From Croceicoccus mobilis (lineage in GTDB: Bacteria; Pseudomonadota; Alphaproteobacteria; Sphingomonadales; Sphingomonadaceae), in NCBI RefSeq assembly GCF_001661965.1, contig NZ_LYWZ01000022.1, positions 1 to 64,000 on the forward strand: 64,000 nucleotides of DNA, written 5' to 3'. Each line of letters opens with the position of its first letter. Positions within the stretch are counted from its first letter, which is position 1. The notes under the pieces were generated by a model that made no database searches, was not told the DNA's origin, and saw only the letters and a list, made by a program, of their open reading frames with translations. The translations under genes were made by a program, and so were the position numbers. Positions 53,141 to 57,639 of the stretch are shown in pieces.

Positions 53141-54829
53141 TCAGACCTTTTCGAGCAGGCGTTCGGCCTGCGCGCGCGCTTCGGGCGTGATTTCCGCGCC
53201 TGAAAGCATGCGGGCGATTTCCTCGACCCGCTCGCCCTTGTCCAGCTGGCGGACGGAGGTGCGAGTGACGATGCCCTGGCTCGATTTCGCGATCATGTAA
53301 TGGCTGCCGCCACGTGCGGCGACCTGCGGGCTGTGGGTGACGGCAAGAAGTTGTCCCGCCGCGCCGGATCCATTGGCCGTGCCGCTCGCCAGCCGCGAAA
53401 GCCTGTCGCCGATGGCATCGGCCACCGCGCCGCCCACCCCGCGGTCGATCTCGTCAAAGATGATGACGGCCGCACCGCCCTCCTCTGCCAGCGCGACTTT
53501 CAGCGCGAGGATGAAGCGGGAGAGTTCCCCGCCCGATGCGATCTTGTTCAGCGGCGCAAAAGGCGCGCCCGGATTGGTCGCGATCATGAATTCGACCGCG
53601 TCGATGCCATGCGCGCCCCAGCGATCTTCGGGCAGGCGCTGGATCGCGGTGCGGAATTTCGCGGCATCGAGCTTCAGCGGCGCCAGCTCTGCCGCGACCG
53701 CCTTGTCCAGCCGCCGCGCCGCTTCCACCCGCGCGGTCGACAGCGTTTCGGCGATCGCGTGGTAATGCGCGCCCGCGTCGAACGCCTTGCGCTTCAATTC
53801 GGCCACGCGCTCGGTGCCATGCTCGATATCGGTGAGCGCGGCCTTCATCTCTTCGAGCTTCGCCGGCAGGGCATCGACCGTGGTGTCGTGTTTCCGCGCG
53901 GCGGCGCGCAGATCGAACAGGCGTTCTTCGGTATCGTCCAGAACCTGCGGGTCGAAGCTCAGCGCCTCGCTTGCGCGGTTCAGCGCCTCTTCCGCCTCAC
54001 CCCCTTCGATCAGCGCGCGGTCCAGCGCCTCCAGCGCCTCACCCAGCGCGGGATGATCCTCGGCAATCCGGTCCAGCTTGCGCGCGGCGCTACGCAATTG
54101 CGCCAGCGGGCCGTCAGAGCCGGTAAAGACATGGCCGAGGTCTTTCAGATCATCGGCCAGCCGCTCGCCCTTTTGCATGTCGGCGCGAGCCAGAGCCAGT
54201 TGCTCCTCCTCGCCCGGCATGGGCCCCAGCTTTTCCAGCTCCTCGACATGCGCTGCCAGCAGTTCCTGCTCGGCTTCCGCATTGGCGATGGCGGCGATGG
54301 CGGCTTCCAGCGCGTCCTCGGCCTTGCGCCAAGCGTTCCATGCCGAAGCCACCTCGCCCTCGTCCATCCCGGCATAGCGGGTGAGAAGCAGGCGATGCCC
54401 GCGCGGGTTCACAAGACCGCGATCGTCATGCTGACCGTGCAATTCGACCAGCGCCGGGGCCAAGGCGCGCAGCACGGCAACGCCAACAGGCTGGCCGTTG
54501 ATGAATGCTTTCGACCCGCCATCTGCCTTTACCTGACGGCGCAATACCAGCGGCTCGCCCGGTTCCATCTCGACGCCGGCATCGTCCAGCACCTCGGTGA
54601 TCAAGGCGGGCATGGGGGTGAATTCGAAAGTCGCGGTCACGCTCGCCTGCGCTTCGCCGGCGCGCACCAGCGATGTTTCGGCGCGGTTCCCCAGCACGAG
54701 ACCCAGCGCATCGAGCAGGATCGACTTGCCCGCCCCCGTCTCGCCCGTAAGCACGCCGAGTCCTGCCGGGAAGGCAAGGTCAAGCGCTTCAATCAGCACG
54801 ATATTGCGGATCTGCAAGCTGGTCAGCAT
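53141..54829 (-). CDS. recN: DNA repair protein RecN
   Basis: 562 residues. SMC-like ATPase in double-strand break repair: Walker A GETGAGKS (29-36), long coiled-coil in the middle, signature LNKIASGGELSRFILALK, Walker B VIIFDEIDRGVGGAVA and VTHSPQVAARGGSHYMI. The start is at 54829. No LexA GTTC-N7-GTTC box was found in the upstream gap. Follows bamD in orientation, but five other genes intervene. Confidence 0.94.
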   Translation of the reverse strand: MLTSLQIRNIVLIEALDLAFPAGLGVLTGETGAGKSILLDALGLVLGNRAETSLVRAGEAQASVTATFEFTPMPALITEVLDDAGVEMEPGEPLVLRRQVKADGGSKAFINGQPVGVAVLRALAPALVELHGQHDDRGLVNPRGHRLLLTRYAGMDEGEVASAWNAWRKAEDALEAAIAAIANAEAEQELLAAHVEELEKLGPMPGEEEQLALARADMQKGERLADDLKDLGHVFTGSDGPLAQLRSAARKLDRIAEDHPALGEALEALDRALIEGGEAEEALNRASEALSFDPQVLDDTEERLFDLRAAARKHDTTVDALPAKLEEMKAALTDIEHGTERVAELKRKAFDAGAHYHAIAETLSTARVEAARRLDKAVAAELAPLKLDAAKFRTAIQRLPEDRWGAHGIDAVEFMIATNPGAPFAPLNKIASGGELSRFILALKVALAEEGGAAVIIFDEIDRGVGGAVADAIGDRLSRLASGTANGSGAAGQLLAVTHSPQVAARGGSHYMIAKSSQGIVTRTSVRQLDKGERVEEIARMLSGAEITPEARAQAERLLEKV

Positions 54830-54928
54830 TTCAAGGCCCAGTATTGCCTGTCATCTCAGGCGATAGCCACCGGTGCGTGCGGCAACGCACAAGTCGCCCC
54901 CAGCTTTTCCACAGCTTTGCCCAGCGCG

Positions 54929-54946
54929 CCGTCACACCCCCGTCAC
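54929..54946 (+). promoter_or_regulatory. Pho-box-like direct repeat upstream of plcP
   Basis: CCGTCAC-ACCC-CCGTCAC, two identical 7-bp repeats with a 4-base spacer, the exact spacing of PhoB boxes. Each half matches CTGTCAC at 6 of 7 positions. Lies 100 bases before the ATG. I see no clear -10 in the expected place. Confidence 0.55.
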
Positions 54947-55046
54947 ATCGCCACCAAACCGCAACACCGGCCTGACATGGCGGCATCAGCACGAAGTTCA
55001 TGTCACTCGCCAAGGGTTTGGCGCAGATCCAAAGGGGGTCCGGACG

Positions 55047-55973
55047 ATGAAACACAATGCCTTTGCACGGAAGCTGATCGAGAACGGCCTGACCACCGCC
55101 ATGCCCATGCCGGGATCGCTGCCCGACTGGCTGAGCCATCCCGAACCGCGCGGCTTTCGCCCCAAACGCAAATATCGCACCGTCTATATCTCCGACGTGC
55201 ATCTGGGAACGAAGGGCTGCAATGCGGGCCTGCTCATCGACTTCCTGTCGGGGATCGAGTGCGAGACGCTCTATCTCGTTGGCGACATCGTCGATGGCTG
55301 GCGGCTGAAAAAGGGCTGGTATTGGCCCGACGAACATAATGAAGTCGTGCGCCGCATATTGAAGATGGCGCACCGGGGCACCCGCGTGATCCTTGTCGCG
55401 GGCAATCATGACGAGATGCTGCGCGCCTATGCCGGCATGCACTTCGGCGGCGTGGAGATCGCGGACGAGGCCATTCATGTCACCGCCGATGGCCGCCGCC
55501 TGCTGGTCACTCACGGCGATGCCTTCGACGGCGTCGTGCTTTATGCCCGCTGGCTCGCGTTTCTGGGTGATAAGGCTTACGAGCTTTTGCTGAAAGCCAA
55601 TGTCGGTTTCAACGCCGCCCGGCGGATGCTGAAGCTCCCGTACTGGTCGCTGTCCGCTTACCTGAAACACCGGGTGAAAAACGTCGTCCAGTTCGTCTGC
55701 GACTATGAAGAGGCCGTCGCCCATGCCGCGCGCGAGATTGGCGTGGATGGCGTGGTCTGCGGCCATATCCACTGCGCCGAAATCCGCCAGATCGGCGACA
55801 TCACCTATTACAATGACGGCGACTGGGTCGAAAGCTGCACCGCTCTGGTCGAGGAAGCCGACGGCGAAATGCGCATCATCGACCACGCAGCCGACATGCG
55901 CGAACGCGAAGCCCGCGCGAAGCTGACGCCTGCGCCAGCGCTCAAGCCGGAGCGCGAGAAAGAGCCCGCCTGA
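55047..55973 (+). CDS. plcP: Calcineurin-like phosphoesterase, PlcP (phospholipase C) type
   Basis: 308 residues. Metallophosphoesterase motifs: DVHLG (D50, H52), GDIVDGW (D80), GNHDE (119-123), HGD (156-158) and GHIH (239-242). Databases usually call this family UDP-2,3-diacylglucosamine diphosphatase, but the YRTVYISDVHLGTKG start and the glycosyltransferase neighbour fit PlcP, which removes phospho-headgroups from phospholipids under phosphate starvation and feeds diacylglycerol to a glycosyltransferase. LpxH-like action on lipid A precursor is the alternative. Stop and next start overlap (TGATG). Confidence 0.82.
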   Translation: MKHNAFARKLIENGLTTAMPMPGSLPDWLSHPEPRGFRPKRKYRTVYISDVHLGTKGCNAGLLIDFLSGIECETLYLVGDIVDGWRLKKGWYWPDEHNEVVRRILKMAHRGTRVILVAGNHDEMLRAYAGMHFGGVEIADEAIHVTADGRRLLVTHGDAFDGVVLYARWLAFLGDKAYELLLKANVGFNAARRMLKLPYWSLSAYLKHRVKNVVQFVCDYEEAVAHAAREIGVDGVVCGHIHCAEIRQIGDITYYNDGDWVESCTALVEEADGEMRIIDHAADMREREARAKLTPAPALKPEREKEPA

Positions 55974-57043
55974 TGCGTATCCTGATCGCCAGCGACGCAT
56001 GGGTGCCGCAGGTCAATGGCGTGGTCCGCACGCTGCAGGAAACGGTCACGCGCCTGCGCGGGCGCGGACATGTGGTTGAGATGCTGACGCCCGACCAGTT
56101 CCTCAGCATGCCGATGCCGTTCTATTCGGAAATCCGTCTGGCGCTGAAACCGGGCGCGGTGGCGGCACGCCGCATCGCCGCCTTCGCGCCCGATATCGTC
56201 CATATCGCGACCGAAGGGCCGATCGGCTGGGCGGCGCGGCGCTGGTGCCTGAAAAACGCCATGCCGTTCACCACCGCGTTCCACACGCGTTTCCCCGATT
56301 ACGCCGCCGTGCGCACAGGGCTGTCGGCGGAGCGTTTCTGGCCGGTCATGCGGCGTTTCCACGCGCCGTCGCGCACCGTGCTGGCCGCCACGCCATCGCT
56401 GCGCGAGGAACTGGCGGGGCGCGGCATCGGTCCGCTGGCGCCATGGTCGCGCGGGATCGATGCCGAGCTGTTCAATGCGCAGGTTACGCCCGATGCCGAA
56501 TTGGCCGCCCTGCCCGGCCCCGTCTTGATCTATGTCGGACGTGTCGCCCCAGAAAAGGGGCTCAACGATTTCCTGGGCTGTGGCCATCCCGGCACCCGCG
56601 TGGTCGTGGGCGATGGCCCGGCATTGCCCACGTTGAAGCAGCGCTATCAGCGGGCCGTATTCACCGGAAAGCTAACCGGTTCAGCCCTTGCCAGTGCCTA
56701 TCGGGCAGCGGATTGCTTCGTGTTTCCCAGCCGGTCGGACACTTTCGGCCTTGTCATGGTGGAGGCATTGGCCTGCGGCGTTCCGGTCGCGGGCTATCCG
56801 GTGCAGGGCCCGATCGACATCGTCGGCCCCGACGGACGCGGCGGATCGGGCGAGCTTGCCCGCCCCATCGGCGCGGTCGACGACGATCTCGACGCCGCCA
56901 TCGCCCGCGCATTGCTGGCGGACCGCACCGACTGCGCCGAATATGGCGCAAGTTATAGCTGGGACGCGGCGACCGATCAGTTCATCGCCGCCTTGGGCTA
57001 TGTGGTGGGGGCAGAACACGTAGACGGCGCGCAGGCGGCGTGA
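55973..57043 (+). CDS. GT4-family glycosyltransferase (Agt-like diacylglycerol glycosyltransferase)
   Basis: 356 residues. GT-B fold: MRILIASDAWVPQVNGVVRTLQ, then IHIATEGPIGWAARRWC (written here VHIATEGP), FHTRFPDYAAVR, WSRGIDAELF, YVGRVAPEKGLNDFL and FPSRSDTFGLVMVEALACG (donor EX7E region). The start overlaps the plcP stop by one base, so the two are co-translated. Next to plcP this family makes glycosyl-diacylglycerol in phosphate starvation (Agt); sugar donor not known here. Otherwise it could be a general mannosyltransferase. Confidence 0.85.
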   Translation: MRILIASDAWVPQVNGVVRTLQETVTRLRGRGHVVEMLTPDQFLSMPMPFYSEIRLALKPGAVAARRIAAFAPDIVHIATEGPIGWAARRWCLKNAMPFTTAFHTRFPDYAAVRTGLSAERFWPVMRRFHAPSRTVLAATPSLREELAGRGIGPLAPWSRGIDAELFNAQVTPDAELAALPGPVLIYVGRVAPEKGLNDFLGCGHPGTRVVVGDGPALPTLKQRYQRAVFTGKLTGSALASAYRAADCFVFPSRSDTFGLVMVEALACGVPVAGYPVQGPIDIVGPDGRGGSGELARPIGAVDDDLDAAIARALLADRTDCAEYGASYSWDAATDQFIAALGYVVGAEHVDGAQAA

Positions 57044-57090: not shown

Positions 57091-57639
57091 ATGCCCGCCT
57101 CTATGCCAGCGTCCCTGCCGATCCAAACCGAGCGCCTCATCCTGCGCCGACCGGAAATGGCTGATGCACCCGCCCTGCACCATATCGCCAGTGACGAGCG
57201 GGTCGCCAGCACGACGGCATCGATCCCGCATCCCTATCCGGACGATGGCGCGCAGGAATTCATCGCCGCGATCCGCGACAATACCGATCGCGACCAGCTC
57301 AACCTCGTCATTCAGATAAAAGGCAGCGATGTAATCGGGATGGCCGGTTTCCGCCCGCATGAGGGGCATGTCGAGCTGGCCTATATGATCGGCCATGCGC
57401 ATTGGGGGCACGGCTATGCGACAGAGGCAGCACACGCCATCGTTCGACATGTCTTTGCCAATAGCTTGCATGACGTGATTCTGGCCCGTGCCATGACGCG
57501 CAACCCTGCGTCCGAAGCCGTCATCCGCAAGCTTGGGTTTCGTCAGACCGGGGTAGCCGATGTCGATGTACCCATGCGCGGAGGCGTATTTACATCATCG
57601 TTCTGGCGGCTGGAACGCGCGGATCGACATGACGGCTGA
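57091..57639 (+). CDS. GNAT-family N-acetyltransferase (RimJ/RimL type)
   Basis: 182 residues. TERLILRRPEMADAPALHHI at the start, GMAGFRPHEGHVELAYMIG and HWGHGYATEAAHAIVRHVF (acetyl-CoA pyrophosphate loop), then RNPASEAVIRKLGFRQTG: the layout of GNAT enzymes acting on ribosomal proteins or small amines. Substrate unknown. Lies 47 bases after the glycosyltransferase gene. Confidence 0.9.
   Translation: MPASMPASLPIQTERLILRRPEMADAPALHHIASDERVASTTASIPHPYPDDGAQEFIAAIRDNTDRDQLNLVIQIKGSDVIGMAGFRPHEGHVELAYMIGHAHWGHGYATEAAHAIVRHVFANSLHDVILARAMTRNPASEAVIRKLGFRQTGVADVDVPMRGGVFTSSFWRLERADRHDG

Follow-up and report, generated by a model that had tools for sequence, protein, structure and literature searches.

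A putative PhoB-controlled plcP–agt operon for membrane-lipid remodelling in Croceicoccus mobilis

The window analysed here, a 64,000-nucleotide stretch of the Croceicoccus mobilis genome (contig NZ_LYWZ01000022.1), carries a phosphoesterase gene that is followed directly by a glycosyltransferase gene and preceded by a short direct repeat. Does this pair serve lipid A synthesis, as the usual database label of the first gene implies, or the replacement of phospholipids by glycolipids when phosphate is scarce? The evidence argues for the latter: with a probability of about 0.9, we consider the pair to be plcP–agt, a membrane-lipid-remodelling operon controlled by PhoB, with the repeat as its probable PhoB box. 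The system itself is not new, as it has already been published for the close relative Erythrobacter sp. NAP1, and the window adds one more case, with good support, of an established way of saving phosphate, in which phosphate is swapped for sugar in membrane lipids.

The first gene, plcP (positions 55,047–55,973, plus strand), encodes a PlcP-type calcineurin-like phosphoesterase of 308 aa, classified by Pfam and predicted to release diacylglycerol from phospholipid. The second, agt (55,973–57,043, plus strand), encodes a GT4 glycosyltransferase of 356 aa, likewise classified by Pfam, which is a predicted diacylglycerol glycosyltransferase with UDP-glucose and UDP-glucuronate as its probable donors. 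The overlap between the phosphoesterase stop and the glycosyltransferase start, pointed out in the initial annotation, consists of the string TGATG, in which the plcP stop codon TGA (55,971–55,973) and the agt ATG at 55,973 have one base in common. A longer plcP reading frame with a GTG start at 54,873 was set aside, since it would enclose the repeat and the alignment with L113, a close relative, begins at the ATG. Upstream of plcP, and pointing away from it, lies a minus-strand gene (53,141–54,829) which, from its sequence, we take to be recN. Downstream of agt, 47 bp further on and in the same orientation, begins an ORF (57,091–57,639) that looks by eye like an acetyltransferase gene.

The arrangement was followed through a draw of 119 family genomes, 86 of which contain plcP; 85 loci were examined, the window included and the fragmented copies of genome G007 omitted. 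A glycosyltransferase gene lies downstream of plcP on the same strand at 84 of these 85 loci, its start being no more than 200 bp from the plcP stop in 83 of them and the remaining one being L085, whose plcP reading frame stops early; at L019, the available stretch downstream of plcP holds no glycosyltransferase gene. As recN is found upstream of plcP at only 2 of the 85 loci, the pair stays together while its surroundings change. The early stop at L085, like the plcP of G007, which lies in pieces at two places, may reflect decay or an assembly error, and stops flagged at L012 and L108 coincide with the match ends and are apparently the natural stops of these genes.

The PlcP protein matches the Pfam families Metallophos_2 and Metallophos, both calcineurin-like. 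Nine of its residues (D50, H52, D80, D83, N120, H121, H156, H240 and H242) are invariant across 84 aligned rows, comprising the window and 83 relatives, and we take them, by analogy with the superfamily, to be the metal-site residues. A search of a 3.7-Mb S. meliloti record found a single place, 50.2% identical over 85% of the query, which is presumably the experimentally studied PlcP of that species. As a PlcP enzyme, it would hydrolyse phospholipid to diacylglycerol in a Mn-dependent manner.

Agt matches GT4 domains in Pfam and contains the motifs GRVAPEKG and FPSRSDTFG. Against the motifs GRVAXEKN and FPSXTDTFG of GTcp, the SAR11 enzyme of Candidatus Pelagibacter HTCC7211, the first motif of Agt ends in Gly where GTcp has Asn, and the second has Ser in place of Thr. 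Fourteen GTcp residues whose mutants are inactive, or which are called crucial in PMC8231724, were compared by the residue numbers and motifs given there; in these terms 13 of the 14 are identical in Agt, the exception being Thr162, which is Ser. Eleven of them bear identical numbers in the two proteins (G16, G82, G85, H104, R190, K195, D256, T257, F258, G259 and E264), while R163 and W320 of GTcp correspond by motif to R160 and W330 of Agt, and Thr162 to Ser159. The features that mark the Agt/GTcp clade, namely the His104–Asp256 dyad, the motifs and the residues for donor and diacylglycerol, are present in Agt. Among 84 aligned glycosyltransferase rows (the window and 83 relatives), ten of the 14 compared positions do not vary at all; at E264 and W330 the only departures are gapped rows (one and two, respectively), position 85 is G in 75 rows and C in nine, and position 159 is variable. 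Agt is a predicted UDP-sugar-dependent enzyme, for which we infer diacylglycerol as the acceptor.

Erythrobacter sp. NAP1, which shares the order Sphingomonadales with the host, has one of the nearest known counterparts; Citromicrobium is a further relative of the host. In NAP1, a plcP–agt type 2 cluster has the same gene order as here, with agt downstream of plcP, and phosphate starvation leads to MGDG and GADG, according to PMC4796936. Putative Pho boxes have been reported for plcP clusters by Sebastian et al. (PMC4796936), possibly including NAP1's own. A Citromicrobium glycosyltransferase is included in the GTcp clade as presented in PMC8231724. Judged by the same paper, the HTCC7211 plcP–GTcp system shares with the present pair the glycosyltransferase motifs, the His104–Asp256 dyad, the donor-site residues, most diacylglycerol-site residues and an operon-like arrangement, but it belongs to another lineage, has Thr162 where the window has Ser, and its GTcp was tested as a purified protein whereas Agt is known from sequence. 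In P. aeruginosa, PA3219–PA3218 (plcP–agt1) similarly form a unit of two genes behind a conserved Pho box, in which PlcP is followed by a diacylglycerol glucosyltransferase; P. aeruginosa differs in having a second glycosyltransferase, Agt2, for glucuronic acid, its Agt1 taking UDP-glucose alone (PMC8528852). None of the literature matches listed deals with plcP in Croceicoccus or Novosphingobium.

The repeat (54,929–54,946, plus strand) proved to be exactly as the initial annotation had it, with CCGTCAC at 54,929–54,935 and again at 54,940–54,946 and the 4-bp spacer ACCC in between. It has the build of a Pho-regulon site, that is, two 7-bp half-sites with a 4-bp spacer, upstream of the gene and in the gene's direction, and it is treated here as a putative Pho box (predicted PhoB site) on account of this geometry, its counterparts in relatives and a box before pstS. 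Measured against the published PhoB-box consensus, CTGTCATNNNNCTGTCAT (as given in PMC8528852), 10 of 14 positions are equal, and all four differences are T to C. From the end of the box to the plcP ATG the distance is 100 bp, compared with 44 bp at pstS, which would imply a long leader for plcP; inspection by eye revealed no clear −10 element.

The degenerate pattern CYGTCAYN4CYGTCAY, which was devised after the box had been seen and is circular to that extent, matches the box as its only site without mismatch in the 4.2-Mb genome. In 5000 dinucleotide shuffles of the 217-bp recN–plcP intergenic stretch, no shuffle matched at 0 mismatches and six did at 1 mismatch. Matches to the literal repeat with up to three mismatches numbered seven in the window, the box included, versus 8.31 expected, so that loose matches are uninformative and the exact site alone stands out. 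Allowing one mismatch to the degenerate pattern gave 20 sites in the genome, and the reversed pattern gave four. Only the pstS site among the 20 is clear of all ORFs shown, a distinction to be read with the caveat that spurious ORFs cover nearly everything in this genome, the plcP site too; the 18 sites other than those of plcP and pstS were compared only with ORF maps, and we neither assign them a function nor dispute one.

Relatives were scored with the strict published consensus, the window being excluded, which makes the test non-circular. Sites with up to three mismatches on the forward strand were found at 22 of 84 family loci, versus 0.8 in shuffles and 0 of 84 in the coding control, and sites with up to four at 47 of 84, versus 6.4 and 1 of 84. 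Reverse-strand sites within three mismatches, present at five of 84 loci, also exceed the shuffle level. These counts come from loci related by descent and are not independent trials, and the scanned upstream stretches reach down to the first plcP codon that aligned, with some coding sequence perhaps included. The check in related genomes for which the initial annotation had asked came out in its favour, with sites like the repeat enriched upstream of the pair. With the degenerate pattern, scanned on both strands at up to two mismatches, 42 of 85 family loci had a site, versus 2.0 in shuffles and 0 of 85 in the coding control; at 37 of these 42 the site is directed towards plcP, and 14 of the 85 loci had none within three mismatches. 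In the named set, degenerate-pattern sites at up to two mismatches were found in 48 of 80 loci (coding control 0 of 80) and strict-consensus sites at up to three in 15 of 72 on the forward and 11 of 72 on the reverse strand (shuffles 0.5); the nearest named relatives are Croceicoccus, at 83% at best. Of 33 aligned recN–plcP intergenic stretches, that of the window and those of nine relatives (L113–L115, L120, L124, L154, L155, L182 and L184) have the repeat at one shared position with 0–3 mismatches. In the remaining 23, which for the most part carry the name Novosphingobium or come from unnamed Sphingomonadales, the block has diverged, and its clearest match frequently lies on the other strand. 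Many Novosphingobium loci likewise have their best box match on the reverse strand, and the region upstream of S. meliloti plcP has a box match at three mismatches only. Two loci carry a perfect CTGTCATN4CTGTCAT upstream of plcP on the opposite strand (L138:2916–2933 and L169:2835–2852, minus); the divergent gene at L138 is recN.

The genome of the host contains the regulator that the box would call for. A profile search found one PhoB above the curated cut-off, and the ORFs around it read as phoR, a porin-like gene, pstS, pstC, pstA, pstB, phoU and phoB, names which, apart from PhoB and PstS, were read off the translated sequences, PstS matching TIGR02136 below the cut-off (156 vs 206.6 bits). 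A box of similar form, TTGTCACGCGGCTGTCAT, ends 44 bp before pstS.

Under the proposed mechanism, phosphate limitation would lead phosphorylated PhoB to bind 54,929–54,946, giving one transcript over plcP and agt. PlcP, as a metallophosphoesterase, would then cut the phosphorylated head group off phospholipids to yield diacylglycerol, the phosphate released in this step being reusable, and Agt would add glucose and/or glucuronic acid from a UDP-sugar to produce phosphorus-free glycolipids. Co-transcription, PhoB binding, induction, substrates and products are proposed here by analogy with characterised relatives. In NAP1 the betaine lipid DGTS builds up as well (PMC4796936), in contrast to which the present genome has no BtaA-type (PF11899) match; one of the 21 genomes searched has such a match. 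DGTS was rejected on this ground as the fate of the diacylglycerol, which makes glycolipid the likelier one.

The main competitor in the databases takes the first gene for an LpxH-like enzyme that hydrolyses UDP-2,3-diacylglucosamine on the way to lipid A and has the downstream glycosyltransferase act on LPS, which we regard as highly improbable. PlcP and LpxH do share a phosphoesterase superfamily and a database label: among the NCBIfam models, those for LpxH score PlcP highest, the six solved structures matched are all LpxH-type, and the label 'UDP-2,3-diacylglucosamine diphosphatase', which had been foreseen from the DNA, is attached to 20 of the 25 plasmid homologues among the matches listed (33 records matched; one Sphingomonas), the other five having no listed feature. 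However, the LpxH equivalog models score PlcP at 43.7 and 44.9 bits, far short of their respective cut-offs of 190.35 and 134 bits, and the sub-cut-off LpxH matches seen in 26 of 60 genomes, which might be counted in favour of lipid A, include as the host's own match the very plcP described here; no LpxH scored above cut-off in the 60 genomes, the host included. The rest of the pathway, as far as represented by LpxC, LpxB and LpxI, gave the same picture. LpxC was found in none of the 119 family genomes (controls positive in 4 of 14), LpxI in none of 60 genomes of the order (1 of 14) and LpxB in none of 21 genomes (6 of 14), the host being included each time, and no plcP was detected in 33 of the 119. 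That LpxC did not turn up agrees with what is reported for this group: according to a review, members of the Sphingomonadaceae and Erythrobacteraceae carry glycosphingolipids and are without LPS (PMC7956469). A lipid A function was therefore rejected, on the LpxH scores and on LpxC, LpxB and LpxI not being found. The initial annotation had looked to lpxI to free the gene from lipid A duty; lpxI did not turn up, and the freedom holds because LpxC and LpxB were not found. Its lipid-remodelling interpretation of the pair gains from this outcome as well as from the enrichment of box-like sites in relatives. The usual label would mislead here, and if the family's chromosomal annotation carries it too, lipid A pathway reconstructions that count plcP need correction; a literature search gave no published notice of the mislabelling among the matches listed.

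The remaining doubts concern the acceptor and the regulator. PhoB-controlled GT4 enzymes can act on ceramide, as exemplified by Sgt1 and Sgt2 of Caulobacter, whose closest relatives outside the Caulobacteraceae are in the Sphingomonadaceae (PMC6445935), and glycosphingolipids take the place of LPS in the present family (PMC7956469). That Agt uses ceramide as its acceptor, instead of diacylglycerol or in addition to it, is nevertheless quite improbable given the near-constant position of its gene directly 3' of plcP, the eleven GTcp residues at identical numbers, including Asp256 where MshA has Glu (PMC8231724), and five other, weaker GT4-type matches in the genome, which could do the ceramide job. 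It is also unlikely, if less so, that the pair works as described while the repeat is non-functional or is bound by another OmpR-type regulator. Either could be suspected from the GC-shifted half-sites with their four departures from the consensus, from the diverged block in 23 of the 33 aligned stretches, and from a PhoB-like response regulator gene divergent from plcP at 15 of 80 named loci; against them stand the pstS box of the same form in the host and the family-wide enrichment of the strict PhoB consensus upstream of plcP. Control by PhoB with diacylglycerol as the acceptor remains the preferred reading.

The divergent regulator gene (e.g. L163:2010–2684, minus) was seen at none of the 85 family-draw loci, which hold less upstream DNA. 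Its product has a Trans_reg_C domain and a receiver that, by eye, is without the usual acidic N-terminal pair, and at 12 of the 15 loci the best Pho-box-like match is on the regulator's strand. As a rather improbable speculation, the glycosyltransferase may act on ceramide as well, so that phosphate starvation would adjust the glycosphingolipid that substitutes for LPS, and the divergent regulator may be a second, dedicated layer of control in part of Novosphingobium. A relative of this regulator, 55.5% identical, is encoded in the host genome near 49.9–50.5 kb of contig C24 (L052), beside a secA-like gene.
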